Source of the DNA: Ruminococcus sp.
Lineage (GTDB): Bacteria > Bacillota > Clostridia > Oscillospirales > Ruminococcaceae
NCBI GenBank assembly: GCA_017462565.1
Contig: JAFTQW010000063.1
Span: forward strand, 62,001 to 126,000
Reading direction: 5' to 3'
Length of the DNA stretch: 64,000 nt
Position numbers and translations under genes: made by a program. The notes below the pieces were generated by a model. It saw only the letters and a program-made list of their open reading frames with translations, was not told the DNA's origin and did not search any database. Positions 736-51,539 of this stretch are shown here, piece by piece. Position 1 is the stretch's first letter. Each line of letters opens with the position of its first letter.

Positions 736-897
736 AGAACTTGTTCTCATAGGATTTGTGCGTAGATTTTCGAGCATAATTTTAATGAGTGCAAGGCAAA
801 AAAGCGAAAGCATACTGTCGTATGGTGAGCTTTTTAACGCAGCAATCGTTAAAATTTGCTGAAAAGATGCGTGCAATATCCTATGAGAACAAGTTCT
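736..897. repeat. Palindromic element, family 1 copy A (MITE-like)
   Basis: A 162 bp element bounded by a perfect 20 bp terminal inverted repeat (736-755 and 878-897). Read on the minus strand its interior aligns almost base for base with the elements at 15552-15712 and 51382-51539. Shared parts are GCAAATTTT, CTGCGTT, and an apical hairpin CATAC-GACA-GTATG (811-824) followed by a pyrimidine-rich stretch and GCCTTG. The terminal arms are unrelated in sequence to those of the other copies. It contains no credible gene and lies between the MBOAT promoter and the terminator of the MBL gene. Confidence 0.8.
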
Positions 898-914
898 TAG
901 CAAATTTCAAGTGA

Positions 915-955
915 TAATATAAAAGCAGCACCGTAAAAAAAGAGTGCGGTGCTGC
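915..955 (-). terminator. Rho-independent terminator of the MBL-fold gene
   Basis: Inverted repeat GCAGCACCG (925-933) / CGGTGCTGC (947-955). On the minus strand it is followed by TTTT and an AT-rich run (915-924). It lies 17 bp past the stop of the gene at 972-2570. Confidence 0.8.
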
Positions 956-971
956 CTTAAAGAGATGGCTG

Positions 972-2570
972 CTAAAATTCCCAGTCGTCGCAAAGCTTGT
1001 TTATCGCTTCGGCCAGCTTATTCATATCGGCATTGGCGCATCCGGAAGAATTTTTAACAAGAGCTGAAAGCCTTTCCGAAGCAGTCAGCAGGCGAGAGTA
1101 GCTTGCCGAAAGATTAGCTGCATTGCGTTTTTTCTTGGGGATAGGAATGGGTTTTGCATCAACGGTTATCTCACCGGAAATCATATCGAATTCCGCTCCG
1201 CTGAAAGGAGCGTAGGCAGAAACATTCAATTCCGATTCAAGCCGATTTACAAGAGCGTTTGCAGAATCATCTTCACCATGATTGACAAAGAACATTTTTA
1301 CTCCCTGTATAGCTTTCGCCCAGTCTATAAGACCGTTCGAGTCTGCATGACCGCTTATTCCGGGAAGCTGTGTTATTTCAGCGCAGACGCTTATTGCCTC
1401 GCCGAAAATGCGAACTCTTTTTGCTCCTTCGATAAGACTTCTTCCAAGAGTATTTCCTGCCTGATACCCTACAAAGAGTATAATATTTTCGCTCTTCCAA
1501 AGGTTATGTTTAAGGTGATGTTTGATTCTTCCGGCATCGCACATTCCACTTGCCGAAATAATAACTTTTGGTCTTGAATCGCTGTTTATAGCTCTTGAAT
1601 CATCGCTTGTTACAGTCCGGATAAGTCCCTCGAAGGCAAGCGGATTTATGCCCGATCTTACGTATGCAAGAGCCTCTTCGTCATAACAGCTTTCACGGTT
1701 GTCAATAAAAATATCAGTTGCCTCGTTAGCAAGCGGGCTGTCCACATAAACCGGAAAATCATCATGACCGATCAAAAGCTTCTGTTCCTTTATTTTCCTC
1801 AGAAAATAGAGCATTTCCTGAGTTCTGCCCACAGCGAACGACGGGATTATAACGCTTCCCCCTCGATCGAATGCACGCTGTAAAACTTTGGCAAGAGCCG
1901 TGACGTAATCTGTCGGCTTTTCGTGGAGCCTGTTGCCGTAGGTTGATTCAATAACTGCATAATCGGCAGAATCAATAAACTGCGGATCACGTATAAGGGG
2001 CTGATCCAAATTGCCTATATCTCCGGAAAAGACTATTTTTCGGGAAATTTCCTCTTCACACATCTCGATGATAACGCTTGAAGAACCGAGAAGATGTCCT
2101 GCATCACGGAATGATACATTGATGCTTGGGCATAGTTCAAACGAAGCGTCATAATGATGCGGAACGAAAAGCTCGATTGCTCCGAGAGCGTCATCCATAG
2201 TATACAGCGGAGTATACTCCTCCTCGCCTTTACGACGGGCTTTACGGCTGCGCCATTCGGCTTCAAATTCCTGAATATGAGCGCTGTCACGGAGCATAAC
2301 GCTGCATAAATTAGATGTAGCTTCGGTAGCATGGATCTCTCCCTTAAAACCGCCTGCAAAAAGCAGTGGGAGCAGTCCGGAATGATCAATATGGGCGTGT
2401 GTCAAAAGGACAAAATCTATATTCGACGGAGATACCGGTATGCGGACATTTTCATACATATCCTCTCCCTGCTGCATTCCGAAATCAACAAGAATTCTTT
2501 TGCCGCAGGCCTCAATATAAGTACAGCTTCCGGTTACTTCATGCGTTGCGCCGATAAATGTTAGTTTCAT
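972..2570 (-). CDS. MBL-fold/beta-CASP metallohydrolase, RNA-processing exonuclease-like (YSH1/CPSF-type)
   Basis: A 532-residue predicted cytoplasmic zinc hydrolase. The N-terminal metallo-beta-lactamase domain has the metal-binding motif HAHIDH (residues 58-63), a downstream DAGHLLGS segment and an FSGDIGN motif. The beta-CASP insertion follows (VIESTYGNR, then VIIPSFAVGRTQEM). A C-terminal Zn-dependent RMMBL block contains ISASGMCDAGRI and SGHAD. This architecture is typical of bacterial CPSF-like ribonucleases of COG1236, distinct from RNase J. AGGAGGT sits just before the ATG. The gene is monocistronic, with its own terminator, and its 5' UTR contains palindromic element D. The precise RNA substrate is unknown; nuclease activity is inferred from the family. 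Confidence 0.88.
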   Translation of the reverse strand: MKLTFIGATHEVTGSCTYIEACGKRILVDFGMQQGEDMYENVRIPVSPSNIDFVLLTHAHIDHSGLLPLLFAGGFKGEIHATEATSNLCSVMLRDSAHIQEFEAEWRSRKARRKGEEEYTPLYTMDDALGAIELFVPHHYDASFELCPSINVSFRDAGHLLGSSSVIIEMCEEEISRKIVFSGDIGNLDQPLIRDPQFIDSADYAVIESTYGNRLHEKPTDYVTALAKVLQRAFDRGGSVIIPSFAVGRTQEMLYFLRKIKEQKLLIGHDDFPVYVDSPLANEATDIFIDNRESCYDEEALAYVRSGINPLAFEGLIRTVTSDDSRAINSDSRPKVIISASGMCDAGRIKHHLKHNLWKSENIILFVGYQAGNTLGRSLIEGAKRVRIFGEAISVCAEITQLPGISGHADSNGLIDWAKAIQGVKMFFVNHGEDDSANALVNRLESELNVSAYAPFSGAEFDMISGEITVDAKPIPIPKKKRNAANLSASYSRLLTASERLSALVKNSSGCANADMNKLAEAINKLCDDWEF

Positions 2571-2597
2571 AATGACCTCCTAAAGTAAAAAGAGTAC

Positions 2598-2771
2598 AGG
2601 CAACACCGCACAAAGCACGCCTGACGGCTTTGCACGTCATCTGCTTACATATTTTCCGTCATATCACACAAATTCTCCTTGCAATACGATAGTATTGCTG
2701 CGTCAAATTTATGCAATCTGACAAAAAATCTGACTACGCATCTGCCGCACAATCTTTGTGCGGTGTTGCCT
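2598..2771. repeat. Palindromic element, family 2 copy D (in the 5' UTR of the MBL gene)
   Basis: A 174 bp element with a perfect 18 bp terminal inverted repeat (2598-2615 / 2754-2771). Its apical hairpin is GCAATAC-GATA-GTATTGC (2681-2698). Read on the minus strand its core aligns with the element at 53954-54117 (GTCAGATTG, TGACGCA, ATGACGGAAAATATG, AGCCGTCA), but the arms and the apical stem differ in sequence. It lies between the MBL-gene promoter (2796-2824) and its start codon, so it would be transcribed as part of that mRNA. Confidence 0.8.
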
Positions 2772-2795
2772 ACAAAGCGATATTTCGTTTATACT

Positions 2796-2824
2796 ATTAT
2801 AACATATATCAACATTTTTGTCTA
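2796..2824 (-). promoter_or_regulatory. Promoter of the MBL-fold gene
   Basis: Minus-strand TAGACA (2819-2824) and TATAAT (2796-2801) with a 17 bp spacer. The distance to the start codon (about 220 bp) means the transcript begins with hairpin element D. Confidence 0.6.
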
Positions 2825-2879
2825 CGTTATTTTGTAAAATTTCACAAGTTTTTTCTTTCTTTTTCGCCCGATATTAGGC

Positions 2880-2909
2880 TTGACATATGTACCGCTGCTG
2901 TGATATAAT
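2880..2909 (+). promoter_or_regulatory. Strong extended -10 promoter of the glycan operon
   Basis: TTGACA (2880-2885), an 18 bp spacer, a TG dinucleotide at 2901-2902, and TATAAT (2904-2909). It lies about 45 bp upstream of the exporter permease start. It is the only strong promoter noticed before the eleven co-directional genes 2955-15546. Confidence 0.8.
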
Positions 2910-2954
2910 AATAAGATAAAATGGAAAAATTATGCACGTTTGAAGGAGTTTCAA

Positions 2955-3731
2955 ATGAACACTATAAAAGAACTTTATGCTTATCGGCAAATGATTTTCA
3001 GTCTTGTAAAAAAAGACCTGCGGGGACGCTATAAAGGCTCGGTTCTCGGTTTTTTATGGACGTTTATCAACCCGCTTCTCCAGCTTGTCGTCTATACCGT
3101 GGTCTTTTCATTCATACTTAAATCTAATATCGAGCGGTATTATCTTTATCTTTTCGTTGCGCTGATACCTTGGATTTTCTTCTCATCGTCACTGACAGTC
3201 GGAGCGTCCTCAGTCGTGGCGCAGAAGGATCTGATAAAAAAGATCTATTTTCCGAGAATGGTCATTCCAATCTCATATGTCACAAGCTGCTTTGTCAATA
3301 TGCTTCTTTGCTTCATTGTTATCTTTGCTGTAATCATATGCACGGGAGCGGGATTTAATTTTGCTGCGCTTCTGACACTTCCGATAATCATGATAGTAGA
3401 ATATATCCTCGCATTGGGAATGGCTCTGCTTGCATCCGCAGTCACCGTTTATTTCAGGGATTTAGAGCATATTCTCGGTATTATTTCAATGATGTGGATG
3501 TATATGACTCCCATTATGTACGATAAATCTATCGTTCCGGAGCGTCTGCTGCCTGTTTTCAATCTCAATCCGATGACTCACGTTATCGAATGCTACCGAA
3601 CCGTTCTTTACAACAAAGCTATGCCCGATCTTTCAACATTGCTTTTTGCAGCCGGTTTAGGAATATTTTTCCTGATTTTCGGCAGCTTTGTATTCAATAA
3701 ACTTCAACGTCACTTTGTGGAGGAATTGTAA
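2955..3731 (+). CDS. ABC-2 type polysaccharide/teichoic-acid export permease (Wzm/TagG-like)
   Basis: A 258-residue integral membrane protein with about six hydrophobic spans and the ABC-2 export permease signature near its N-terminus (SLVKKDLRGRYKGSVLGFLW). It pairs with the ATPase encoded directly downstream to export lipid-linked glycan across the membrane. The ATG at 2955 is chosen because AAGGAG lies 6 bp before it; an in-frame TTG at 2940 would put that site inside the coding sequence. It is the first gene of the operon. The family is certain, but the exported polymer (O-polysaccharide-like glycan or teichoic acid) cannot be read from the permease. Confidence 0.92.
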   Translation: MNTIKELYAYRQMIFSLVKKDLRGRYKGSVLGFLWTFINPLLQLVVYTVVFSFILKSNIERYYLYLFVALIPWIFFSSSLTVGASSVVAQKDLIKKIYFPRMVIPISYVTSCFVNMLLCFIVIFAVIICTGAGFNFAALLTLPIIMIVEYILALGMALLASAVTVYFRDLEHILGIISMMWMYMTPIMYDKSIVPERLLPVFNLNPMTHVIECYRTVLYNKAMPDLSTLLFAAGLGIFFLIFGSFVFNKLQRHFVEEL

Positions 3732-5003
3732 ATGCCGCAGAATGAAATCGCTATTGATGTAAATAATATTACTAAAAGCTTCAAGGTCTTTCTGGATAAA
3801 GGCTCGCAGCTTAAAGAGCGTCTGCTCTTCCGGAAAAGAAACCGCTATGAGGAGCGAAAGGTACTCCGTGGGATAAGTTTTCAGGTCAGAAAGGGCGAAG
3901 CAATAGGTCTTATCGGACATAACGGCTGCGGAAAAAGCACCACGCTCAAGCTCCTCACGAGAATCATGTATCCCGACTCCGGAACGATTACCATGAACGG
4001 CAGAGTTTCAAGTCTTATTGAACTTGGCGCAGGCTTTCACCCCGATATGAGCGGACGTGAAAATATTTACACGAACGCCGCAATCTTTGGTCTTACCAAA
4101 CATGAGATAGATGCAAGATTAGATAAGATAGTCGAATTTTCCGAGCTTGAGGATTTTATAGACAATCCCGTCCGGACTTACTCCTCAGGAATGTATATGC
4201 GTCTGGCTTTCTCGGTTGCTATAAATGTTGACGCAGATATTCTGCTGATAGATGAGATTCTGGCAGTCGGCGACGCCAATTTTCAGGCGAAATGCTTCAA
4301 TAAACTGCGTGAAATAAAGTCTAAGGGAACAACGATCGTTATCGTTTCGCACTCTCTCGGTCAGATAGAACAAATCTGCGACCGTTCCGTCTGGATTCAT
4401 GAGGGTCTTATCAAGGCTGAGGGAGATCCCAAAGAGATCGACCTTGAATACCTCGATTTTATGGGAAGAAAAATGCAGGAAAACGCCAAAAAAGAGCTTT
4501 CGGAAAAGGAAAACTCCGGTGAACAGACTCCCGAAAGCAGCGCTCCCACCGAAAACGATACAAACAGTTCCGCTGCGAAAAACCGCTGGGGAAACGGCAA
4601 AGCGAGAATTGAAAGAATACGTTCCTATTCTTCCGACGGCAGCGAACAGAAGATTTTCCAAACCGGTGAGAGCATTCTATTCAAACTTGATTATACTGTA
4701 AAAGAGAGTGTGGAGGACGCTGTTTTCGGCATAGGTATTTTCAATCGTGACGGCGTTCAGTGTTACGGTACGAACACGAGAATCGACCAGATAAAGCCGT
4801 TTTTGCTCGATAAGAGCGGTTCTGTCGAGATAACGCTTGATGATGTTATGCTGCTTGCTGGCGAATATATCCTTGATTTTGCTATCGAAAGCGGCGACGG
4901 TATTCCCGTTGATTACTACAGAGGTGCGTTTGAGATTCAGATGATCTCAAATCTGGGCGATGTAGGTATAGCTCGGATAGACCATAAATGGAAGCTGAAA
5001 TAA
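3732..5003 (+). CDS. Polysaccharide ABC exporter ATPase with C-terminal Wzt-type carbohydrate-binding domain
   Basis: A 423-residue protein starting immediately after the permease stop. The ATPase domain has Walker A GHNGCGKST (62-70), signature YSSGM (150-154) and Walker B ILLIDE (170-175). A charged low-complexity linker (about 240-275) leads to a beta-rich C-terminal domain (about 275-423) resembling the Wzt C-terminal module. In Gram-negative O9a-type systems that module binds the chemically capped non-reducing end of the glycan before export. TagH-type ATPases have different extensions. The presence of this domain, with a coiled-coil methyltransferase encoded next, suggests export coupled to chain termination; that coupling is inference. 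Confidence 0.9.
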   Translation: MPQNEIAIDVNNITKSFKVFLDKGSQLKERLLFRKRNRYEERKVLRGISFQVRKGEAIGLIGHNGCGKSTTLKLLTRIMYPDSGTITMNGRVSSLIELGAGFHPDMSGRENIYTNAAIFGLTKHEIDARLDKIVEFSELEDFIDNPVRTYSSGMYMRLAFSVAINVDADILLIDEILAVGDANFQAKCFNKLREIKSKGTTIVIVSHSLGQIEQICDRSVWIHEGLIKAEGDPKEIDLEYLDFMGRKMQENAKKELSEKENSGEQTPESSAPTENDTNSSAAKNRWGNGKARIERIRSYSSDGSEQKIFQTGESILFKLDYTVKESVEDAVFGIGIFNRDGVQCYGTNTRIDQIKPFLLDKSGSVEITLDDVMLLAGEYILDFAIESGDGIPVDYYRGAFEIQMISNLGDVGIARIDHKWKLK

Positions 5004-5022
5004 AAGTTTGGAGTGATAGCTT

Positions 5023-6135
5023 TTGAGCAATATAATGCAATTTTTACAAAATATCAGATCGCAGAACGGTTTTAAGGCAAAGCTGCGGAATCGTTTGTTT
5101 TCTTCAATGATCCATGGGTTTGAAGCCATTGAAGCCGACATCAGCTCGATAAATTCTCAGCAGGAAGAGATAATGAAAAGACTGGAAAGCTTGCAGTCAC
5201 GTTTTGATACAGTTGAAATCAAATCTTCCGATTGTATTGGCACAGTTTCGGCGCTGAGAAGCGATCTTGAAAACATCGGAGTTAATCTCCGCAACAATAA
5301 TTCCGCTATAGACAGGCTTTCCGCCGACAGCGAGTTCATTAAATTGAAAATTTCCGGAATGGAAAAAAGTCTCCGCAGCAACGCTTCGCCTGTAATGTCT
5401 GCTCCTCAGAGCGGACAGGCTCAGTCTGTTTCGCAGGCAGACGTTAACGCTCCGCAGGAAAGCGATTACGAAAGCATAGATTACTTTGATTTCGAGAATC
5501 ATTTCCGTGGTTCTATCGAGAGTATCAAAAAGGCTCAGGAATTCTATCTGCCCTATTTTAAAAACAGCAAGAAAGTTATAGATATTGGCTGCGGACGTGG
5601 AGAATTCCTCTCGCTTATGAAGGATAACGGAATTGACGCCTGCGGTGTCGATATTTATGAGCCGTATGTCGATTACTGCAATATGAAGGGACTTTCCGCA
5701 GTTTGCGGCGACGGTTCGGAGTTCCTTTCAAGGCAGGACGAGGTTGACGGCATTTTCGTCGGACAAGTTGTTGAGCATCTTAAAACTCACGAAATTATCA
5801 GGCTGTGCAATACCGCCTATGAGAAGCTTTCCGAGGGCGGAATTATCGTTATAGAAACGCCGAATCCGACTTCGCTTGCTATCTATACCAATGCTTTTTA
5901 CATCGATCCGTCGCACATTAAGCCGGTTCATCCGCTTACTATGAGATATTACCTCGAAAAAGCCGGATTCCGGAAGATAGATGTCATTTTTACTGAAAAC
6001 AGCCGCCCGCAGTTTGAAATTCCGGAACTGAAAATTTCCGGCGGAGAAGATACAGAAGAATTCAACAAGGCTATGAAAAAGGTTTCAGAACTTCTCTACG
6101 GCAGTCAGGATTATGCTGTTATTGCCTGTAAATAG
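5023..6135 (+). CDS. Coiled-coil-tethered class I SAM methyltransferase (candidate glycan-capping enzyme)
   Basis: A 370-residue protein. Residues about 20-125 are heptad-rich (coiled coil), about 125-150 are a Gln/Ala/Ser-rich linker, and about 160-370 form a class I methyltransferase. SAM motif I is VIDIGCGRGEF, followed by GVDIYEP, DGIFVGQVVEHL and IIVIETPNP. The TTG at 5023 is chosen because GGAGTG lies 7 bp upstream; an ATG at 5035 is the alternative. The arrangement recalls WbdD, where a methyl cap and a coiled-coil ruler set glycan length before Wzt recognition. No kinase domain is seen here. The methylated substrate is inferred from the neighbours, not shown by the sequence. Confidence 0.85.
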   Translation: MSNIMQFLQNIRSQNGFKAKLRNRLFSSMIHGFEAIEADISSINSQQEEIMKRLESLQSRFDTVEIKSSDCIGTVSALRSDLENIGVNLRNNNSAIDRLSADSEFIKLKISGMEKSLRSNASPVMSAPQSGQAQSVSQADVNAPQESDYESIDYFDFENHFRGSIESIKKAQEFYLPYFKNSKKVIDIGCGRGEFLSLMKDNGIDACGVDIYEPYVDYCNMKGLSAVCGDGSEFLSRQDEVDGIFVGQVVEHLKTHEIIRLCNTAYEKLSEGGIIVIETPNPTSLAIYTNAFYIDPSHIKPVHPLTMRYYLEKAGFRKIDVIFTENSRPQFEIPELKISGGEDTEEFNKAMKKVSELLYGSQDYAVIACK

Positions 6136-6154
6136 CCTTTGAAAGGACATAAAA

Positions 6155-6664
6155 ATGGAAAACAACAACATTAATATCGAAGAAATCATGGCACAGATAA
6201 AGCGTGAGATAAAGGAGAAAAATTTCTCCTCGGATATGCTCAGCTTCGAGGATGTTCCTTATAAAAAGCCGGTTCAGGTAAGCCGCAGCGGAAACGCTTC
6301 TCTTGATGATGCGGACGAGGCTCTCGCTTACATGAATGCTCACTACTACGTTCAGCCTTACAAGCCGATTGCAGGCAATCCGATCAAAGTTTTCATTAAA
6401 AAGGTTATCAGAAAGCTTACTAAATTTTATGTTGAACCTGTGGTTTTTGAGCAGAACGAATTCAATGCAAACACAGTCAGCGTTCTTAATACTCTGCGCA
6501 ATACAGCCGAAAATCAGCCGTCGAGTGAAACTGATGCGCTTGCCGGAAAGCTTGAAACTCTTGAACTTGCGCAAAAAGAACTTCTCATCAGAATTGAGAC
6601 TCTCGAAAAGGAAAACTCCTCGCTCAAAGAGGCGATCGCCGCAGGAAAGCAGGTTTCGGAATGA
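6155..6664 (+). CDS. Small coiled-coil protein of the glycan operon
   Basis: A 169-residue soluble protein without enzyme motifs. The N-terminus NIEEIMAQIKREI looks amphipathic. The middle (IRKLTKFYVEPVVFEQNEFN, residues about 89-108) resembles a segment often found ahead of methyltransferase domains in glycan-modifying proteins. The last ~40 residues are strongly coiled-coil (LETLELAQKELLIRIETLEK). It starts 19 bp after the methyltransferase and overlaps the next gene by 4 bp (ATGA). It may be the membrane-proximal partner or a split-off half of a composite capping protein; function unproven. Confidence 0.75.
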   Translation: MENNNINIEEIMAQIKREIKEKNFSSDMLSFEDVPYKKPVQVSRSGNASLDDADEALAYMNAHYYVQPYKPIAGNPIKVFIKKVIRKLTKFYVEPVVFEQNEFNANTVSVLNTLRNTAENQPSSETDALAGKLETLELAQKELLIRIETLEKENSSLKEAIAAGKQVSE

Positions 6665-7743
6665 GGATTATCCAGATTCTTCCCACGCTCTCATTCGGGG
6701 ACGCTATCGGCAACGACACGATCGCTCTCAAGGGAGCAATCGCCGACATGGGATTCGATTCCGAGATCTACGCCGAAAACGTGGACAAACGGCTTCCGTC
6801 GGATATTGCTAAAAATATAGGAAGGCTCAAGGGACTTAAACCGGACGATATTATCCTCTATCACAAATCGACGGGAACGGAGCTTACATTTAAGCTGGAT
6901 GAATTTAAATGCCGTAAGATAATGATTTATCATAACATAACTCCGCCTGAATTTTTTGCTCCTTATAGTCCTGCGGCGGAAAGACTTACAAAATTCGGCT
7001 ACGAGGGAGTTGAATTTCTCAGAGATAAGGTTGAACTCTGTCTTGCTGACTCTTCTTATAATAAAAGTGAACTGATTCGTATGGGGTACGATTGTCCGAT
7101 AAAAGTCCGTCCTATACTTATAAAATTTGACGATTATAAGCAGACTCCCGATAAAACCGTTCTCAAAAATTGCAGCGACGGTAAGACAAATCTTATTTTT
7201 GTCGGCAGAATAGCTCCTAATAAAAAGCAGGAGAATATTATCCGTGCTTTCTATTGGTACAAGCGGATTAATCCCGATTCACGTCTGATTCTCGTAGGTT
7301 CGTACACAGGCATGGAGAATTATTTTGAAAGGCTTGTGAAGTACACAAAAGCGCTCGGTCTCGAAGAGGACGTTATTTTTACCGGACATATAAAATTCAG
7401 CGAAATACTGGCTTATTACCACTCCGCTCACGCTTTTGTATGTATGAGCGAGCATGAGGGATTTTGTGTTCCTCTTGCTGAAGCGATGTTTTTTGACGTT
7501 CCGATAATCGCCTATGATACGAGCGCAATTTCTGATACTCTCGGCGGAAGCGGAGTTCTCATCAATGATAACGATCCTGTTTTTGCCGCACACGTTATTG
7601 ACCGTGTTGTCAGCGACAATGCGCTGAGGAATCATATTATCGAGGGACAGAGAAAACGTCTTGAAGACTTTTCCTACAATAAAATCAAAAATATTTTCGA
7701 GAAGCAATTAAAAGATTTTATAAAAGATAAAAACTGTCGATAA
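6661..7743 (+). CDS. GT4-family glycosyltransferase
   Basis: A 360-residue GT-B fold enzyme of the Glycos_transf_1 type. The donor-binding half contains LIFVGRIAPNKKQENIIRAF, and the E-x7-E region is EHEGFCVPLAEAM followed by FDVPIIAYD. It probably adds one sugar from a nucleotide-sugar donor to the lipid-linked glycan at the cytoplasmic face. Translationally coupled to the preceding coiled-coil gene (ATGA overlap). It is followed by an unusual 229 bp gap filled with hairpins. Sugar specificity cannot be deduced. Confidence 0.9.
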   Translation: MRIIQILPTLSFGDAIGNDTIALKGAIADMGFDSEIYAENVDKRLPSDIAKNIGRLKGLKPDDIILYHKSTGTELTFKLDEFKCRKIMIYHNITPPEFFAPYSPAAERLTKFGYEGVEFLRDKVELCLADSSYNKSELIRMGYDCPIKVRPILIKFDDYKQTPDKTVLKNCSDGKTNLIFVGRIAPNKKQENIIRAFYWYKRINPDSRLILVGSYTGMENYFERLVKYTKALGLEEDVIFTGHIKFSEILAYYHSAHAFVCMSEHEGFCVPLAEAMFFDVPIIAYDTSAISDTLGGSGVLINDNDPVFAAHVIDRVVSDNALRNHIIEGQRKRLEDFSYNKIKNIFEKQLKDFIKDKNCR

Positions 7744-7789
7744 CAGCGTTGTTTTTGACGTATATAACGGTGAATTTGTTCCGCTTATT

Positions 7790-7945
7790 CTCTGCAATGA
7801 GTATTTCCCCTTGTTTGGGCATTCTGCCCTAATTATTTTCATTACCTCTTTACGAGGTAATGAAAATAATTAATATCGGGATTCCAAAGGGTTATTCAAC
7901 CCTTTGGCAGGGGTTTAAGGGGACAGCGTCCCCTTTATAATAGGA
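7790..7945. repeat. Modular palindromic repeat R1 inside the glycan operon
   Basis: Four successive inverted repeats: GGGC/GCCC (7817-7829), a perfect 17 bp stem (7832-7848 / 7854-7870), CCAAAGGGTT/AACCCTTTGG (7884-7907) and AAGGGGA/TCCCCTT (7917-7935). The same ordered modules recur at 45680-45865, 56340-56460 and, inverted, at 60690-60810. No gene is visible in the 7744-7972 gap. The stems lack long U-tracts, so termination is uncertain, but they could alter mRNA stability or polarity between the fifth and sixth genes. Confidence 0.8.
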
Positions 7946-7972
7946 CGTCAGTAAAGAAAAGGTGATAACAAA

Positions 7973-12503: not shown

Positions 12504-12508
12504 TTTTT

Positions 12509-15551: not shown

Positions 15552-15712
15552 AGCGTGTTCACATAAAAATGTAATGCACGTCTTTTCGGCAAATTTTGAC
15601 GACTACTGCGTTGAAAAAGTTCACCATACGACAAATATGCTTTCACTTTTTCGCCTTGTATTCGCCAAAATTATGCTCAAAAATCCGCACATTCATTTTA
15701 TGTGAACACGCT
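15552..15712. repeat. Palindromic element, family 1 copy B
   Basis: A 161 bp element with a perfect 17 bp terminal inverted repeat (15552-15568 / 15696-15712). Its core matches copies A and C (TCTTTTCGGCAAATTTT, CTGCGTTG, CACCATACGACA, GCCTTG, AAAATTATGCTC). Flanking the apical hairpin it pairs GAAAAAGT with ACTTTTTC where copy A pairs AAAAAGC with GCTTTTT, a compensatory change. It lies between two convergent operons, next to their shared terminator. Confidence 0.8.
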
Positions 15713-36769: not shown

Positions 36770-36770
36770 T

Positions 36771-39828: not shown

Positions 39829-39848
39829 TATATTTATTCCATTTTTTC

Positions 39849-39877: not shown

Positions 39878-39975
39878 ATATTGTGGCAGTTTCTGCTGGC
39901 TGAAATTTCACATTAAAAATTTTCTCTTTCGGCTTTCAGAGACGTTTTTACTGATTTATTACGGAGGATTTTTTA

Positions 39976-41267: not shown

Positions 41268-41269
41268 AA

Positions 41270-41570
41270 TAATAACAGGATTCCAAAGGGTGACTCCCCA
41301 CAGTGTGGGGAGATGTCGGCTTGCCGACAGAGGGGACGGGCGCCTGTTAGGCGAATATCCCTTTGGTCGGGTCAAGGGCAGACAGTCCTTGTGGGGTATC
41401 GGGGCAAAGCCCCGTAAAAAGACAGCGTGAGGTAAACAAAAAGACTAAGAACTAACACCTTTCTAAAAATGAAAGTAAAACATACTTCACGCTGTCCCAA
41501 AGTAACCGATACCATTCCGGCTGTTCTTGTGAGCGCAGAGCGAACACGCTGTAAACTATCCCTGAGCAAC
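41270..41570. repeat. Modular palindromic repeat R7 upstream of metH
   Basis: It contains GGATTCCAAAGGGTG, CCCCACAGTGTGGGG, TGTCGGCTTGCCGACA, a CCCTTTGG block, GGGGCAAAGCCCC, the ACAGCGTGAGG / TTCACGCTGTCC pair (41410-41420 and 41486-41497), and a GTGAGCGCAGAGCGAACACG block (41528-41547). The 555 bp pheA-metH gap is thus almost entirely repeats. I found no cobalamin or SAM riboswitch in it. Confidence 0.75.
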
Positions 41571-41658
41571 CTAATGCATACGCTTGCAATTCACAGCCGA
41601 TTAACTGCCCTAATGTCATATTTTTTATTACAGACCATATCAGGAGGATATCATTGCC

Positions 41659-44040: not shown

Positions 44041-44049
44041 TAAAAATAA

Positions 44050-44082
44050 GGACGAACCTGTTTTTACGGTTCGTCCTTTTTT
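44050..44082. terminator. Bidirectional terminator between metH and glyS
   Basis: GGACGAACC (44050-44058) / GGTTCGTCC (44068-44076) followed by T6, with an A-run on the other side giving a T-run on the minus strand. It serves the convergent metH and glyS genes. Confidence 0.85.
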
Positions 44083-44111
44083 ATACTATTACTTTGCCTG
44101 ATCTATTTTAA

Positions 44112-45518
44112 TCAGAATGCCATTTTTGCTTCAAGATAAGCAGCAAGATCGTCAATAGCAACACGCTCCTGCTGCATTGTATCACGGTCACGGACAGTCA
44201 CGCAGTTGTCCTTTTCAAGAGTATCGAAGTCGTAAGTAATGCAGAAAGGAGTTCCGATCTCGTCCTGACGGCGGTATCTCTTGCCGATAGTACCTGTTTC
44301 GTCAAAGTCAACCATGAACTTCTCTGAAAGCATCTCGTAAACTTCCTCAGCCTTTGGAGTAAGCTTCTTTACAAGCGGAAGAACAGCGCACTTGAACGGC
44401 GCAAGAGCCGGATGGAAACGCATAACGGTTCTTGTTTCTTTCTTCTCGTTGCCGTTTTTGTCAACGGAAGTAAGCTCTTCCTCGTCGTAAGCTTCCGTAA
44501 CGATAGAGAGGAAAAGTCTTTCAACGCCGAGAGAAGGCTCGATAACGTACGGAATGTACTTTTCATTTGTTTCCGGATCGAAGTATTCAAGAGACTTTCC
44601 GCTGGTATTGATATGCTGTGTGAGATCGTAGTCTGTTCTGTCGGCTACACCCCAAAGCTCGCCCCAGCCGAACGGGAAGAGGTACTCGAAGTCCGTCGTA
44701 GCCTTTGAATAGAAGCAAAGCTCCTCTGCGGAATGGTCTCTGAGACGGATATTTTCTTCTTTGAGTCCGAGACTGAGGAGGAAGTTCTTGCAGAAGCTTC
44801 TCCAGTAGCTGAACCACTCGAGGTCTGTACCCGGCTTGCAGAAGAATTCAAGCTCCATCTGCTCGAATTCACGTACACGGAAGATAAAGTTTCCGGGAGT
44901 GATTTCGTTTCTGAAAGATTTTCCGACCTGAGCAACGCCGAAAGGAACCTTCTTACGGGTAGTTCTCTGAATGTTTGCAAAGTTTACAAAAATACCCTGA
45001 GCTGTCTCCGGACGAAGATAAAGTTCGGATTTGCTGTCCTCGGTAACGCCCTGGAAAGTCTTGAACATAAGGTTGAACTGACGGATATCGGTGAAATTAT
45101 GCTTTCCGCAGTTCGGGCAGGCAATTTCATGTTCTTTTATATAGTCCATCATCTGTTCATTAGTCCAGCCGGCAACGTTAGTTCCGTCGAAATCCTCGAT
45201 AAGATTGTCTGCACGGTGACGTGTTTTACATTCCTTACAGTCCATAAGAGGATCGGAGAATCCGCCGATATGTCCGGAAGCCACCCATGTCTGAGGATTC
45301 ATAAGGATAGCGCTGTCAAGACCAACGTTATACTTGTTTTCCTGAACGAATTTTTTCAGCCATGCTTTTTTTATATTGTTTTTCAGCTCAACTCCAAGAG
45401 GACCGTAGTCCCACGTATTGGCAAGACCGCCGTAAATTTCAGAACCGGGATATACAAAACCCTTGGATTTACAAAGGTCAACAATTTTGTCCATTACTTT
45501 TTCATTATTTTTCAGCAT
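44112..45518 (-). CDS. glyS: Glycyl-tRNA synthetase (dimeric, single-chain type)
   Basis: A 468-residue class II synthetase of the alpha2 type (GlyQS). It has the N-terminal motif 1 region [20 protein letters not shown], zinc-binding pairs CKECKTRH and CPNCGKHNF, motif 2 [20 protein letters not shown], motif 3 [12 protein letters not shown], and a C-terminal anticodon-binding domain ending with [17 protein letters not shown]. It charges tRNA-Gly. The leader from its promoter (45553-45581) to the ATG is only about 30 nt, too short for a T-box. Confidence 0.97.
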
Positions 45519-45552
45519 TTTTATTTACCTCATTTCAATGATGTTATCTATT

Positions 45553-45581
45553 ATTGTACGTTATATTACAGAAAATGTCAA
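45553..45581 (-). promoter_or_regulatory. Promoter of glyS
   Basis: Minus-strand consensus TTGACA (45576-45581), a 17 bp spacer and TACAAT (45553-45558). Confidence 0.75.
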
Positions 45582-45601
45582 GTGCCTGAAAAAGTTTTTT
45601 C

Positions 45602-45888
45602 ACAGCAGCAGTTTTTGCTTCTATTTGCGTTAATAGGTGAACCTTTTTTCTCTTACTTCTTACCAAAGAGTATTCCCTTTTGGGCATACGCCATAATTAT
45701 TTCAAATTCCCTTTACTGGGATTTGAAATAATTAATTGTGGGTTTCCAAAGGGTGATTCCCCACAGTGTGGGGAAATGTCACGAAGTGACAAAGGGGACG
45801 GGCGACTGTTGGGAGGATTACCCCTTTGGCAGGGGGTAAGGGGGACAGCGTCCCCCTTATCAACGCAAATAGGAGCAAAACTGCTGTT
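45602..45888. repeat. Large modular palindrome R2 between divergent glyS and purB
   Basis: The whole stretch is an inverted repeat. The left arm (45602-45635) and right arm (45857-45888) are complementary over ~30 bp with a few mismatches. Inside are the ATTATTTCAAAT.. hairpin (about 45691-45730), GGTTTCCAAAGGGTG..CCCCTTTGG, CCCCACAGTGTGGGG, TGTCACGAAGTGACA and GGGGGACAGCGTCCCCC. Short open frames cross it on both strands but have no start signals and are artefacts of the palindromes. Confidence 0.8.
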
Positions 45889-45910
45889 ATGAAATAACGT
45901 TTTCATACAA

Positions 45911-45939
45911 TTGACATATTAAGATAAAAATGGTATAAT
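45911..45939 (+). promoter_or_regulatory. Promoter of purB
   Basis: TTGACA (45911-45916), a 17 bp spacer with TGG before the -10, and TATAAT (45934-45939): a perfect extended -10 promoter about 47 bp upstream of the purB ATG. Confidence 0.85.
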
Positions 45940-45985
45940 CATAATGAAATAATGTGCTCTGCGCACGATAAAGGAGATTTTAATA

Positions 45986-47425
45986 ATGAGTAAGAATATC
46001 AACAGCTATGAAAGCCCGTTCTGTACACGTTACGCAAGCGAGGAAATGCAGTATATTTTCTCTGCCGATAAAAAATTCACAACATGGAGAAAGCTCTGGG
46101 TAGCTCTTGCAAGAGCCGAAATGAAGCTCGGTCTTCCCGTTACCGAAGCTCAGGTAAAGCAGCTTGAAGAGCATATAAACGATATCGACTACGAAGTTGC
46201 CGAAGCTCGTGAAAAGGTATGCCGCCACGACGTTATGTCCCACGTTTACGCTTACGGACAGGTTTGCCCGGATGCTGCCGGAATCATTCACCTCGGCGCA
46301 ACCTCCTGCTACGTCGGCGACAACACCGACGTTATCATCATGCGTGACGCCCTTAATGTCGTAAAAAGAAAGCTTGTAAACGTCATGAACAATCTCGCAA
46401 AATTTGCCGATGAATACAAGAATATGCCGTGCCTTGCATACACTCATCTCCAGCCGGCTCAGCTCACTACAGTCGGCAAAAGAGCAACACTCTGGCTCAA
46501 CGAACTCCTTATGGATTTCAACGACCTTGAATACAGAATCTCCACACTCAAGCTCCTCGGTTCCAAGGGAACAACAGGAACTCAGGCTTCGTTTATGGAG
46601 CTTTTCGAGGGCGATACCGACAAAATAAAACAGCTTGAAAAAATGATCGCAGAAGAAATGGGATTCGACAGCGTTGTTCCCGTTTCCGGACAGACTTACT
46701 CACGTAAAATGGATTCTCAGGTTCTTGCGGTTCTCAGCGGAATCGCTCAGTCTTGCAGCAAGTTCTCAAACGATATGAGAATCCTCCAGAGCTTCAAGGA
46801 AATGGAAGAACCCCGTGAAAAAAAGCAGATCGGCTCTTCCGCTATGGCTTACAAGAGAAATCCTATGAGATGCGAGAGAATCACTTCACTTGCAAGATAC
46901 GTCATGATAGACAGCCTTAACCCCGCATTCACAGCCGGAACACAGTGGTTCGAGAGAACTCTCGACGACTCCGCAAACAAGAGAATCTCCGTTGCAGAGG
47001 CTTTCCTCGGAGTTGACGCTATCCTCAATATCATGATGAACGTTACCGACGGTCTTGTCGTATACCCTGAGATCATCCGCAGACGTGTTATGGCGGAGCT
47101 TCCTTTCATGGCAAGTGAAAATATCATGATGGACGCCGTTAAGAAGGGCGGAAACCGTCAGGAGCTTCACGACAGAATAATGGATTACTCAATGATGGCA
47201 GGCGAACAGGTCAAAGTTTACGGCAAGGACAACAACCTTTGCGAGCTTATCGAAGCCGACCCCATGTTCATGGTCACAAAGGAAGAGCTTGACGCCGTTC
47301 TCAAGCCTGAAAACTACACAGGAAGAAGCTCTCAGCAGGTTGACGAATTCCTCAGCGAGTGCATCAATCCTATCCTTGAAGCAAACAAGGACGTTCTCGG
47401 CGAGAATTTCGAGATGAAGAACTAA
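45986..47425 (+). CDS. purB: Adenylosuccinate lyase
   Basis: A 479-residue member of the fumarase/aspartase superfamily. It contains IIHLGATSCYVGDNTD, TRICLAYTHLQPAQ-type residues (CLAYTHLQPAQ) and the signature loop GSSAMAYKRNPMRCER. It cleaves SAICAR in purine synthesis and adenylosuccinate in AMP formation. AAGGAG precedes the ATG. It is expressed from its own strong promoter and followed after 12 bp by a gene for an unknown membrane-anchored protein. Confidence 0.96.
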   Translation: MSKNINSYESPFCTRYASEEMQYIFSADKKFTTWRKLWVALARAEMKLGLPVTEAQVKQLEEHINDIDYEVAEAREKVCRHDVMSHVYAYGQVCPDAAGIIHLGATSCYVGDNTDVIIMRDALNVVKRKLVNVMNNLAKFADEYKNMPCLAYTHLQPAQLTTVGKRATLWLNELLMDFNDLEYRISTLKLLGSKGTTGTQASFMELFEGDTDKIKQLEKMIAEEMGFDSVVPVSGQTYSRKMDSQVLAVLSGIAQSCSKFSNDMRILQSFKEMEEPREKKQIGSSAMAYKRNPMRCERITSLARYVMIDSLNPAFTAGTQWFERTLDDSANKRISVAEAFLGVDAILNIMMNVTDGLVVYPEIIRRRVMAELPFMASENIMMDAVKKGGNRQELHDRIMDYSMMAGEQVKVYGKDNNLCELIEADPMFMVTKEELDAVLKPENYTGRSSQQVDEFLSECINPILEANKDVLGENFEMKN

Positions 47426-47437
47426 GAATAAACTGCT

Positions 47438-48187
47438 ATGAAAAAAGCCATGAAAATCAGTGGGATTATTCTGGGAATAATCCTTATTATTGCTCTTGTG
47501 ATATTTATATTTTGTCCGGGAATTTTCACCTACATCAAGGTAAAGCATAAATATAAGGACATCGACAGAACTATCGGAAAATTTGAAACAGTCGATATTC
47601 CCGATACGTTTAAATCATATGATTTAAACGGCATATCGTTAAAAGCTCCGTATGATTATAAAAAAACTAAAACTTCTCACGGACTGCGTTCTCCTGATGA
47701 AAAGATCACAATTATGATACTCCAGTGGGATATGGCAGAAACTGAGGCTCTTCTGAATGAATACGGTCACGACGTCGATCAGTGGGAACATTACGAATAT
47801 GAAGAATCCGATTACCGAAGCTTTTTCAAAGCCGTTGACGATAAGTATCCTGTAAATTACGACGCAAGCAGCGATATACTGTGGTTTATCAAAGACAGGT
47901 TAAACGCTGAAATGTGTCTGAAGCTGCGTTCAAAGGATAGAAAAGTGTTCCTCGAATTCGCTGACATAAAGGAAAATGCATGGGCTATTGAAAACGCATG
48001 GAAAATGTCCGGCGATGGATTCACCGCTTATGTTTCGGAAGACATATCCGATATGTACAGTGACAGCTTCTGGACTGTGACTATATATCCTGACAGCGGA
48101 GGCAGCGAACATTATTTTGCTGTGATAAAAGGCGCAGGCGAAGAAACATCAAAACAAATTATTTCATCAATGAGGATATCAGAATGA
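47438..48187 (+). CDS. Membrane-anchored protein of unknown function
   Basis: A 249-residue protein. A lysine-rich start (MKKAMK) is followed by one hydrophobic helix (about 5-27, ISGIILGIILIIALVIFIF) and a soluble domain, probably extracytoplasmic. Segments are ISLKAPYDYKKTK, MILQWDMAETEALLNEYG, and FWTVTIYPDSGGSEHYFAVI. It is in the transcript between purB and rimM and overlaps rimM by 4 bp. I do not recognise the family. Confidence 0.75.
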   Translation: MKKAMKISGIILGIILIIALVIFIFCPGIFTYIKVKHKYKDIDRTIGKFETVDIPDTFKSYDLNGISLKAPYDYKKTKTSHGLRSPDEKITIMILQWDMAETEALLNEYGHDVDQWEHYEYEESDYRSFFKAVDDKYPVNYDASSDILWFIKDRLNAEMCLKLRSKDRKVFLEFADIKENAWAIENAWKMSGDGFTAYVSEDISDMYSDSFWTVTIYPDSGGSEHYFAVIKGAGEETSKQIISSMRISE

Positions 48188-48687
48188 AAAAACAATATCT
48201 CGAAGCCGGAAAAATCGTTACAACTCACGGAATAAAGGGCGAAATAAAAATCATGCCCTACACAGACTATCCGGAGCTTCTTTGCGAATTTGACAGGCTC
48301 TTTTTAGGCAAAAATCACGAGGAAATAAACGTCGAGCGTTCCCGTGTTTTCAAAAATATGGTCATTGCAAAGCTGGAGGGATACGATACTCCCGAAGCCG
48401 CCGAAAAGCTCCGCAATAAAATCCTGTATATGCACCGTGACGACCTCGAACTTGACGAGGACACCTACTTCATTCAGGATTTAATAGGAATCGAGGTCTC
48501 CGACGCCGATTCGGGATTTGTCTACGGAAAAATCACTGATGTTATGCAGACCGGAGCTAACGATGTATACGTCATTCAGGGAAAAGACAGGGAATACCTC
48601 GTTCCGGCAATACCAGAAGTTGTTATCACTACCGATATCGACGAAAATACCATGACTATCCGCCCGCTGGAGGGACTTTTTGAATGA
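48184..48687 (+). CDS. rimM: Ribosome maturation factor RimM
   Basis: A 167-residue protein. The N-terminal RimM domain has AGKIVTTHGIKGEIKI and a C-terminal PRC-barrel contains DLIGIEVSDADSGFVYGKI and YLVPAIPEVV. It assists 30S head assembly through S19. It overlaps the upstream unknown gene and trmD by 4 bp each (ATGA), the usual rimM-trmD coupling. Confidence 0.95.
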   Translation: MKKQYLEAGKIVTTHGIKGEIKIMPYTDYPELLCEFDRLFLGKNHEEINVERSRVFKNMVIAKLEGYDTPEAAEKLRNKILYMHRDDLELDEDTYFIQDLIGIEVSDADSGFVYGKITDVMQTGANDVYVIQGKDREYLVPAIPEVVITTDIDENTMTIRPLEGLFE

Positions 48688-49385
48688 AAATAGAAATCAT
48701 GACTCTCTTCCCCGAAATGTGCGAAGCCGTACTCGGCGAAAGCATTGTCGGAAGAGCCAGAAAGGCTGGAAAAATCGAGCTTAACTGCCGTCAGATACGG
48801 GAATATACTCAGGATAAACACCGGCGTGTTGACGATACTCCTTACGGCGGAGGCATGGGAATGGTCATGCAGTGCGAGCCGATATACAACTGCTACAAGG
48901 CTGTTTGTGACGAAATGGGAGCGAAGCCGCATACTATATATATGTCGCCGAAAGGAAAAATTTTCGATCAGCAAAAAGCGGCCGAACTTGCCGGAATGGA
49001 AAATATCCTCATAATCTGCGGTCATTACGAAGGCGTGGATCAGCGTATTATCGATAAAATTGTGGACGAGGAAATTTCTATCGGCGACTATGTTCTGACA
49101 GGCGGAGAAATCCCTGCAATGGCTGTTGCAGACGCCGTTGCAAGAATGTGTCCGGGAGTTTTATCCGATGAGCTTTGCTTCACGGACGAAAGCATTTACA
49201 GCGGTCTGCTTGAATATCCGCAGTATACACGTCCCGAGGTATGGGAGGGTATGGCTGTTCCGCCGGTGCTTTTAACAGGTCATCACAAAAATATCGAAAA
49301 ATGGCGGCATGAACAAAGCCTTGAAATAACCGCAGAACGCAGACCCGATCTTCTGGAAAAATACGGAAATAAGGAACTTTTTTAA
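48684..49385 (+). CDS. trmD: tRNA (guanine(37)-N1)-methyltransferase TrmD
   Basis: A 233-residue SPOUT methyltransferase. It has MKIEIMTLFPEM, the knot motifs IICGHYEGVDQRIID and IGDYVLTGGEIPAM, and the C-terminal RPDLLEKY segment. It makes m1G37 to prevent frameshifting. It overlaps rimM by 4 bp. No clear terminator hairpin follows; the next ~320 bp is an AT-rich region with the HPr promoter and no gene. Confidence 0.97.
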   Translation: MKIEIMTLFPEMCEAVLGESIVGRARKAGKIELNCRQIREYTQDKHRRVDDTPYGGGMGMVMQCEPIYNCYKAVCDEMGAKPHTIYMSPKGKIFDQQKAAELAGMENILIICGHYEGVDQRIIDKIVDEEISIGDYVLTGGEIPAMAVADAVARMCPGVLSDELCFTDESIYSGLLEYPQYTRPEVWEGMAVPPVLLTGHHKNIEKWRHEQSLEITAERRPDLLEKYGNKELF

Positions 49386-49603
49386 GATCTATCCTGCTGC
49401 CTTTATACTTTAAGTATACATCGTGTTATAATTTCCACTTAGACGAATTCAACATATTATAACAAAGATTATTATATATTTTCAACAATTACTATCAACA
49501 TTGTTTTGTAGTGATAATTAACAAGCAAATAAGTTTTTTTTAGCCGGGATTTAATCTAAATGTAGAATTTATTCAAATACAGGGATTTGTAGCAAAAAAT
49601 CCA

Positions 49604-49632
49604 TTGACTATACAAAAATTTGAATGTATAAT
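49604..49632 (+). promoter_or_regulatory. Promoter of the HPr gene
   Basis: TTGACT (49604-49609), a 17 bp spacer and TATAAT (49627-49632), about 75 bp upstream of the ATG. The 49386-49603 stretch before it is AT-rich, with nothing else recognisable. Confidence 0.8.
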
Positions 49633-49706
49633 GAGTACAGCAATTGAAATAAATTTGCAGCTTGACAGTAAGCTTGTCAAGATTACAGAGAATAGGAGAG
49701 TTGTAT

Positions 49707-49979
49707 ATGTTTGTAAGAGAAGTAATGGTTAAGAATCAGGTTGGACTTCATGCAAGACCTGCAACCTTCTTTATTCAGAAGGCTAATGAATTCAAATCAT
49801 CTATCTGGATTGAAAAAGAAGAACGCAGAGTGAATGCAAAGAGCTTACTTGGTATTCTTTCACTCGGTATTGTAGGCGGAACAAACGTTAAGGTTATCGC
49901 TGACGGTGCTGACGAAAAGGCTGCTGTAGACGCACTTATCGAACTTGTAGACAGCGGTTTCAGTGAAGAAAGCAGATAA
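49707..49979 (+). CDS. ptsH: Phosphocarrier protein HPr
   Basis: A 90-residue protein. The phosphorylation site His15 is in VGLHARPAT, and the regulatory Ser46 in NAKSLLGILSLG falls at exactly the Firmicutes HPr kinase site. It carries phosphate from enzyme I in the PTS; as HPr-Ser-P it can act with CcpA in catabolite repression. The ATG at 49707 is chosen (AGGAG about 8 bp upstream) over a longer frame from 49662. No ptsI or EII gene is adjacent. It could alternatively be a Crh-type paralog, but His15 argues for HPr. Confidence 0.93.
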   Translation: MFVREVMVKNQVGLHARPATFFIQKANEFKSSIWIEKEERRVNAKSLLGILSLGIVGGTNVKVIADGADEKAAVDALIELVDSGFSEESR

Positions 49980-49998
49980 TTTTACTTAAAAGCAGTTG

Positions 49999-50040
49999 GG
50001 GCGTTACTTTAATGGTAACGCCCGATTTTGTTTTATTCTA
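49999..50040 (+). terminator. Terminator after HPr
   Basis: GGGCGTTAC (49999-50007) / GTAACGCCC (50015-50023) with a T-rich tail. It also lies just past the convergent spoIVB stop. Confidence 0.85.
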
Positions 50041-50050
50041 TTTTATTCGG

Positions 50051-51280
50051 CTATCCCTCAAAATATTCCGCCATGTTTTCGGCAAATATAGCATAACCCC
50101 GTGTCGGATCGGCTACAAATACATGAGTTACCGCTCCGATAAGCTTTCCGTTCTGTATCACAGGACTTCCGCTCATGCCCTGAATTATGCCTCCGGCAGC
50201 ATCAATAAGACGCTTATCCGTTATGCGTATCACCATATTTCTGGAATCATCGTCGCTGTTGAAATCAACGCTTTCTATCTCGATCGAGTATTTTTCAGGA
50301 GTACAGCCGGAAACCGTCGTATAAATTTCAGCTTTTCCCGTCGTTATTTCCTGACGATAACCCATTGTGAATTCCTCGGCGTTTTCACACAGCTCCTCAA
50401 CAGCCTCGTCCGTAAGATTACCGTAAATTCCGCAGCCGTTGTTCCGGTTAAGAGTACCGTATGCCCCGCCTTTTCTGAAGCATCCACGCAGCTCTCCGGG
50501 AATTCCTTTTTCACCTTTTTTGGCTTCGATTATTTCAACGGGTACAGCTTCTCCGCTGTATAAAGGCACCAGCTCTCCGGTATCAGCATCGCAGATGGGA
50601 TGTCCAAGACCGGCAAATTCTCCGGTTTTTTTGTTGATAAATGTCATCGTTCCGATTCCTGCTACACTGTCACGAACCCACATTCCCCCACGCCAAATAT
50701 TGGTCTTTTGGGAGAAAACAGGTTCAAGAACTGCCGTGAACTCACTGCCGTCTCTTTCGGCAGTAATCTTTATGCCTTTTCCATCGCTTTCAGCTATTAT
50801 CTCCTGAAGCCTGCCGTTGGACACTATCGGCTCTTCGTTAACGGCTTTTATAACATCGCCGACCTGTATTCCCGCATTTTCAGCAGGACATATAGTACGT
50901 CCGCTTTCATCAAGAACAGCCCCGAGCTCTGTGACCATAACGCCGTCCATAAGAAGCTTTATCCCGAACGGATTTCCGCCAACGACAAAAACAGGCGCTT
51001 CCGCTTCACGAACCTGAACGTTTTTAACAGGAATTGCTCCGAAAAGCGAAAGCGTAACCTGATCCGAATGCGGAAACACACTCGCCGTCTGAACGGCGGA
51101 ATCCGCATCAGCCAAACAGCTTATTTCCGGATATTCGGCAATTCTAAGCTCTGCCGACGGTTCTTTTGTTATAACCGCAGGAAGCTTTGACGAATAATAT
51201 CCCGCCGCTGAGAATAAACAAACAAATGCAGCAGATAATACTGCCGCAGTTGACTTGATAATTTTTCTTTTCAAACGCAT
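50051..51280 (-). CDS. spoIVB: SpoIVB-type serine peptidase (S55)
   Basis: A 409-residue protein. A basic N-terminus and one signal-anchor helix (about 6-30) are followed by a PDZ domain (about 110-185: NPFGIKLLMDGVMVTEL, NAGIQVGDVIKAVNEEPI) and an S55 peptidase domain with catalytic Ser in GMSGSPVIQNGKLIGAVTHV. In sporulating Firmicutes SpoIVB is made in the forespore and cleaves SpoIVFA to activate sigma-K. The ATG at 51280 (AAAGGA 8 bp upstream) is preferred over one at 51379. It is not next to spo0A as in Bacillus. It suggests, but does not prove, sporulation. Confidence 0.92.
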   Translation of the reverse strand: MRLKRKIIKSTAAVLSAAFVCLFSAAGYYSSKLPAVITKEPSAELRIAEYPEISCLADADSAVQTASVFPHSDQVTLSLFGAIPVKNVQVREAEAPVFVVGGNPFGIKLLMDGVMVTELGAVLDESGRTICPAENAGIQVGDVIKAVNEEPIVSNGRLQEIIAESDGKGIKITAERDGSEFTAVLEPVFSQKTNIWRGGMWVRDSVAGIGTMTFINKKTGEFAGLGHPICDADTGELVPLYSGEAVPVEIIEAKKGEKGIPGELRGCFRKGGAYGTLNRNNGCGIYGNLTDEAVEELCENAEEFTMGYRQEITTGKAEIYTTVSGCTPEKYSIEIESVDFNSDDDSRNMVIRITDKRLIDAAGGIIQGMSGSPVIQNGKLIGAVTHVFVADPTRGYAIFAENMAEYFEG

Positions 51281-51381
51281 TTTATAATTCCTTTCTCTGG
51301 AATGAGGGATTTTCCCCTCTGATTTATTATACATCAATGCATGAACTTTATTATTGAAAATATGTACCGCTGATTCCATAC

Positions 51382-51539
51382 ATACTAAATGCTATTACAA
51401 ATCACGCATATCTGTCGGCAAATTCTGCACATAACTGCGTTGTCGTCGTCACCATACGACAGTATGCTTTCCTCCTCCGCCTTGCTATATGCAGAATTTG
51501 CCCGGCAGCTATTGCGCAATTTGCAATAGCGTTTAGTAT
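51382..51539. repeat. Palindromic element, family 1 copy C
   Basis: A 158 bp element. Its 21 bp terminal inverted repeats (51382-51402 / 51519-51539) match at 19 positions. Its core shares CACGCAT, CGGCAAATT, CTGCGTTG, and the apical hairpin CATAC-GACA-GTATG (51453-51466) plus CGCCTTG with copies A and B. A second internal inverted repeat (GCAAATTCTGCACATA / TATGCAGAATTTGC) forms the middle stem. It sits between the divergent spoIVB and the membrane gene at 51571. Confidence 0.8.

Follow-up and report, generated by a model that had tools for sequence, protein, structure and literature searches.

Miniature inverted-repeat transposable elements (MITEs) are usually regarded as passive transposase substrates that are defined by their ends. 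Short intergenic MITEs with long stem-loops are already known: in the sections of Delihas (2007; PMC2229807) that concern them, RUP of Streptococcus pneumoniae is a 107-bp intergenic repeat with IS630-like ends and TA targets, for which a transposase of the IS630 family is the proposed mover, and ERIC (127 bp) and Correia (also NEMIS) are MITE-like intergenic repeats with transcripts that form long stem-loops; each is portrayed with a single end type and as affecting neighbouring mRNA, in ERIC depending on orientation. The STAXI motif, in the part of Weinberg (2010; PMC2864571) devoted to it, is a series of pseudoknot repeats located near DNA-handling genes; both RNA and single-stranded DNA have been considered for it. 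Here we analyse four hairpin elements, and their relatives elsewhere, from a Ruminococcus sp. genome (assembly GCA_017462565.1, contig JAFTQW010000063.1, positions 62,001 to 126,000; this whole 64,000-nt stretch is called the window). The elements are MITEs and at once carriers of a conserved fold: one core occurs within many end types, so that the ends differ while the middle is kept, and compensatory change in this middle favours one strand.

We consider it probable that these are MITEs of several end types with one homologous, asymmetric core and that a fold of one strand, the sense strand, is needed for their spread. They would be non-autonomous DNA transposons, ~160–172 bp long in the window, that are mobilized in trans when resident DDE transposases recognize their ends. 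On one strand the whole element is predicted to fold into a single long hairpin, and a small internal loop (C-AA-G / C-GCA-G) seems to be present twice in its core, the two copies facing each other.

Elements in the window

Three of the elements had been described in a first-pass annotation of the window as hairpins with a conserved core; the features are as follows.

736–897, + strand (sense, better folding): element 1, class A ends GAACTTGTTCTCATAGGAT; element proper 737–896 between TAA/TAA
778–857, + strand: structured core of element 1 (model R1, 92.0 bits, E 2.7e-21)
15552–15712, − strand (sense): element 2, class A ends GAGCGTGTTCACATAAAA; flanks TTA / TAA, differing
15591–15672, − strand: structured core of element 2 (model R1, 89.4 bits, E 1.3e-20)
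51382–51539, − strand (sense): element 3, class B ends ATACTAAACGCTATTGCAAA, like those of the IS630-family insertion sequence (IS) at G000:C55:96874-98003
51420–51498, − strand: structured core of element 3 (model R1, 86.1 bits, E 9.8e-20)
2599–2770, − strand (sense): element 4, 172 bp, ends GGCAACACCGCACAAAG, TACA on both sides; absent from the first-pass annotation
2649–2730, − strand: diverged core of element 4 (weak covariance-model match, 21.2 bits, E 0.016)

The hairpins at 736, 15552 and 51382 span 162, 161 and 158 bp where they had been placed; the first span takes in one flanking base on each side of a TAA-bounded element of 160 bp. As had been described, they share the motifs CTGCGTT, CACCATACGACA and GCCTTG, their arms are near-perfect within each single copy, and the stem sequence AAAAAGC/GCTTTTT of one is replaced in another by the compensatory GAAAAAGT/ACTTTTTC.

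The strand originally read folds with z = −11.9, −7.0 and −9.2 (736, 15552 and 51382, respectively) relative to dinucleotide shuffles, with 0 of 200 shuffles matching the fold of each. Its complement, which is the sense strand throughout this work, reaches −79.8, −72.3 and −76.3 kcal/mol, compared with −62.6, −51.0 and −62.5 kcal/mol for the strand originally read. The whole-element fold of element 4 is −83.1 kcal/mol on the sense strand versus −56.4 kcal/mol on the opposite strand.

One core within several end types

Class A, the type of the 736 and 15552 elements, starts with GARYYTGT in most copies. Identical 3-bp flanks bound 30 of the 43 class-A copies in which both ends could be placed, 29 of them TNA, whereas 2000 re-pairings of the flanks gave 13.5 on average and never more than 25. 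The terminal arms had been called unrelated between copies; this is true of 51382, which belongs to another end class, and false for 736 and 15552, which form one family (GAACTTGTTCTCATAGG / GAGCGTGTTCACATA). The contrast drawn with a simple MITE, in which the termini would be kept and the middle would drift, was an artefact of having three copies, and the proposition that ends are not conserved was rejected on the ends and flanks of the 43 scored class-A copies.

A further class, GGCAACACC, duplicates 4 bp and is the end type of element 4, with 33 elements in the sequences examined; 24 of these 33 have identical 4-bp flanks (re-pairing mean 5.6, maximum 12, again over 2000). Class B, to which the 51382 element belongs, has ends TATACT...CTATTGCAAA. 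The check for an empty site proposed in the first-pass annotation yielded one clean case, in class A: loci L019 and L040 are paralogous stretches of the same genome that differ by one element, with a single TAA in the empty stretch and TAA on both sides in the filled one. Four further candidates gave no clear picture.

Across the 216 model matches, ends were placed in 169 and fall by a loose rule into 20 groups, several of them clearly different; the other 47 rows are without recognizable ends. Distinct end types are GAACCTGT, TATACTC, GGCAACACCGCAC, TATTGCTCC, TATAGCAATACAACA, GGGCACCTCTAAAAAC and AGGGTGTGTTGACAC.

Matching insertion sequences were found for classes A and B. An 884-bp IS in the same genome has GAGCCTGTTCAGTATCTTTT ends (class A) with TAA on both sides, and its two open reading frames (ORFs) match the two halves of the IS5-family model NF033580, each below the whole-protein cut-off. 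A relative in the genus holds a similar IS, together with a more distant IS5-like element with different class-A-like ends. The 1,130-bp IS at G000:C55:96874-98003 has ends that resemble class B; its second ORF passes the IS630-family cut-off (NF033545) and its first matches the other half of that model. On inspection, the MITE interior is not seen in the partner IS and the ends alone correspond. End types without a matched transposase include GGCAACACCGCACAAAG, TATTGCTCCACCAATTAA and GGGCACCTCTAAAAAC. Conserved termini with a matching transposase, which the first-pass annotation had regarded as evidence against its interpretation, are thus present genome-wide for the IS5-like and IS630-like end types.

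Two loci depart from the simple layout. In L078 (5606–6050), a longer element combines outer ends of a class-B-like type with an interior similar to the GGCAACACCGCACAAAG class, and may be a nested or composite MITE; in L035 (G000:C6:20679-20855), the core of a class-A copy is split by an insert of ~60 bases.

Covariation and conserved loops

A covariance model was built from 45 cores, and covariation was scored on 40 diverse cores in an alignment fitted to the model, which favours covariation. Among these 40, 86.7% of cells pair, compared with 60.0% after shuffling, and changes on both sides occur in 25 of 28 pairs. Compensated cells number 297 versus 93 in shuffled alignments, and the covariation score is 0.707 versus 0.216 in shuffled ones, with 0 of 500 shuffles reaching 0.707; structures slid by 1–3 columns score 0.11–0.17. 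A lack of covariation once many copies were aligned, which would have spoken against a conserved structure, was not seen.

The core is most constant in three unpaired parts: CAAGG along one side, (A)ACGCAG along the opposite side, and the apex. The internal loop is seemingly duplicated in opposite orientation, CAAG/CGCAG in the outer copy and CGCAG/CAAG in the inner copy; among 51 representative cores (defined below) the outer copy is strict in 30, and the inner copy is strict in 18 and relaxed in 27. Class A has a variant of the inner loop in which the C.A next to a G-C pair has given way to A.G next to A-U. The inner stem of B and C copies consists of Watson-Crick pairs split by tandem G.A / A.G, with G-C and C-G exchanged between copies. 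The apex in the genus is U-N-N-C, with U in 50/51 and C in 45/51; outside the genus it is U-N-N-C or U-N-N-U. On the strand originally read, the apex is GNNA, a stable DNA tetraloop motif; it was set aside, as the stems favour the other strand.

An ORF within the core was also considered. By eye, one strand of the class B and C core reads as acidic codons; this candidate was rejected because in class A each side of the stem differs in length by one base.

Preference for the sense strand

From 216 model rows, removal of those that were identical or had more than four gaps left 198, from which we took 51 representatives with less than 80% identity; 3 of the 51 are without flank and 13 without usable arms.

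Several lines of evidence point to one strand. First, in these divergent elements the sense strand folds better in 45 of 48 with RNA parameters and in 46 of 48 with DNA parameters. Second, the outer arms folded alone favour the sense strand in 44 of 48. Third, mismatches are asymmetric: in the core of the 51 representatives, excluding two loop columns, there are 85 G.U versus 30 A.C and 73 G.A versus 13 C.T, and the outer arms, which lie outside the model, give 97:23 and 78:12, respectively, in 38 of the 51. Fourth, the 22 representatives from outside the genus repeat the pattern (39:9 and 31:1).

The first-pass annotation had offered three readings: a structured RNA, a DNA hairpin with replaced ends, or arms homogenized by template switching. 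A single-strand structure, whether RNA or one DNA strand, fits best among these. A double-stranded hairpin, a cruciform and arm homogenization are disfavoured because none of them gives a reason for, or predicts, a preference for one strand.

Several observations weigh against a selected sense-strand fold within transposase-specific ends. C is rare at mismatches, so part of the strand bias is base composition; G.T exceeds the composition expectation (97 versus 60), and A.C is not below it (23 versus 16.8). For 18 core representatives whose loci were obtained free of the model, p is 0.06 for the G.U excess, which is weak, and 0.001 for the clear G.A excess. Counted per sequence, G.U exceeds A.C in 28 of 51 and falls short of it in 16, a count that takes in the two loop columns, which are C.A by nature. 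For class B, the TA duplication was assessed by eye alone, and several copies are without TA on one side. Finally, no IS or transposase with ends other than A and B was found in the sequences examined.

Timing of changes and alternative explanations

The strongest alternative is that these are ordinary hairpin MITEs, in which the core reflects common ancestry, the ends diverged along with their transposases or were swapped through recombination, and mutation on a transcribed strand or base composition produces the strand bias, with no selection on the fold. The end duplications and partner IS are what this explanation expects, as are the rarity of C at mismatches and the near-symmetric decay of inserted copies. 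It does not account for the excess of compensated double changes, which in successive identity bands number 28 versus 2.7, 105 versus 9.1 and 271 versus 33 expected, nor for the conservation of unpaired bases while stems are replaced, outside the genus too; and deamination alone does not give an excess of G.A over C.T. We regard it as unlikely, though deserving of serious attention.

A second alternative, arm homogenization, holds that one arm is rewritten from the other by template switching or hairpin conversion, leaving complementarity as a by-product of replication. Near-perfect arms that differ between copies are consistent with it, as is one pair of class B copies (L079 and L088, 93% identical) with four neighbouring compensated changes and zero single changes, which looks like conversion. 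However, copies that are at least 97% identical show 20 single and 0 double changes, and those at 94–97% identity show 64 single and 2 double; single changes come first, and the compensated doubles exceed chance only at greater divergence. With no reason, further, for the sense preference of the outer arms, the explanation is improbable.

Third, the elements could belong to a family of structured cis-acting or small regulatory RNAs that merely look repetitive, as the covariation, the conserved loops and a sense-direction tandem array upstream of an ORF in one relative might suggest. Against this, the elements have target duplications and an empty site. By a simple ORF rule at 196 loci, the sense direction agrees with the flanking genes in 52 of 114 same-direction settings. 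A first small sample, in which B and C copies lay sense-wise with genes (10 versus 2, one of the ten being a mislabelled class-A copy), was not borne out, the 196 loci being unbiased. Among 779 flanking ORFs, three groups alone recur at four or more loci (8, 8 and 6 loci), and a gene partner was rejected for want of a strong recurrent neighbour. Changes private to a single copy, counted in clusters of at least three copies, are independent of orientation, at 20:16 and 20:22 with or against the neighbouring genes; with the unbiased orientation, this led us to reject a local regulatory role. We regard a regulatory RNA family as very improbable.

The tandem array itself (L306, 2019–2536; G465:C82) comprises five model matches ~107 bp apart in sense direction, just upstream of an ORF that resembles, by eye, aspartate-semialdehyde dehydrogenase; core units are here expanded outside the usual MITE form.

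Last, a folded single-stranded DNA recombination site resembling integron attC, moved by a recombinase that acts on one strand, would explain a one-strand fold with conserved unpaired bases, variable stems and a sense preference that holds with DNA parameters, but it is barely credible given the DDE-type duplications and ends and the lack of a recombinase-looking group (no integrase-like or recombinase-like one by eye, without a profile search of all ORFs) among the 779 clustered flanking ORFs.

We return to the reading held probable, MITEs with a fold that would serve their spread. The private changes are near-symmetric between the strands (122:102 and 79:68), and orientation is unbiased; the fold is therefore inferred to serve propagation and not the neighbouring genes. 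Together, the covariation and the strand preference suggest that the fold itself matters for how the elements spread. On this view, the fold would matter to lineages that are still spreading, which would keep compensating, and a copy, once inserted, would be near-neutral and decay as such. Less certainly, the folded strand may act as RNA rather than as single-stranded DNA; we favour RNA, since the variation in the loops is of the kind found in RNA motifs. The facing loops are, again with less certainty, a putative protein-binding site.

Distribution

Searching the genome with the core, as the first-pass annotation had proposed, uncovers many further copies in the same genome and in related genomes. 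With the 15552 copy as the query, 47 places are found in the 2.63-Mb genome, including fragments and reverse palindrome matches, and the core pattern of the 51382 element occurs at six. Model matches in the same genome number 71 at E ≤0.001 and 86 at E ≤10; some of those at contig ends may be one element counted twice. Within the genus, 39 of 60 genomes contain cores recognized by the model; a sample of 197 genomes from the order yields 39 with cores, spread over 24 of 111 genera. The element's own genome is counted in both sets, and the order-wide figures, obtained under stricter filters, are lower bounds. An exact-type core pattern searched across the class is found in the element's own genome alone (1/291).

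Public records that contain the core are all metagenome-assembled genomes, titled Ruminococcus sp., Oscillospiraceae bacterium and similar. A related stretch occurs in two unannotated phage records from human faeces; a plasmid search gave no match and a search of viral contigs gave 0. Two class-A copies (L083 and L086, JAMPAJ010000001.1) lie in a metagenome-assembled genome titled Alistipes sp., of a different phylum, which is probably mislabelled or mixed. Four weak matches in the Ruminococcus genome (G000:C31:23844-23975, C8:37839-37970, C26:28530-28661 and C27:27960-28091; E 2.6e-4 to 0.04) are each exactly 132 bases long and may represent another related repeat whose loop is longer.

At the gathering threshold, Rfam reports a T-box alone in the window and no family at the elements. 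At relaxed thresholds across 13 loci, Rfam places only two models over an element, both for microRNAs, both in L001 and both far short of threshold (22.9 of 211 bits and 20.4 of 160 bits). The elements are relevant to annotation, with several copies at contig ends and no Rfam model covering those searched.

Other features of the window are a 532-amino-acid ORF on the same strand as element 4, which ends just upstream of it, and the T-box leader at 54235–54516 (102.2 bits).

Comparison with known systems

In the open-licence literature we found no description of one structured core in MITEs with unrelated transposase ends, nor of a one-strand fold constraint in MITEs; this does not imply absence from print. 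The elements raise a testable question, whether a relative of DNA transposons needs a folded RNA or DNA strand to spread, and are abundant and variable enough for statistics. It is possible, and we put it forward tentatively, that the core is a one-strand folded module, RNA or single-stranded DNA, that is needed for propagation and has been repackaged between unrelated DDE transposase ends across this order of gut bacteria. Such a module would parasitize several transposon families simultaneously, in loose analogy to short interspersed nuclear elements (SINEs) that keep an RNA fold.

The closest known relatives at the ends are IS of the IS5 family (NF033580) and the IS630 family (NF033545), which share ends and target preference with classes A and B, respectively. 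Compared by description rather than by sequence, RUP resembles class B in its IS630-like ends; the difference, as far as the cited sections go, is that the core studied here also occurs with IS5-like and other ends and that one strand's fold is conserved. In contrast to ERIC and Correia as portrayed in the same sections, the present elements are unbiased in orientation and differ in end type among themselves. Set beside the published outline of STAXI, they form one long hairpin inside MITE ends in place of repeated pseudoknots, and the likeness lies in a conserved structure that could be read as either RNA or single-stranded DNA.

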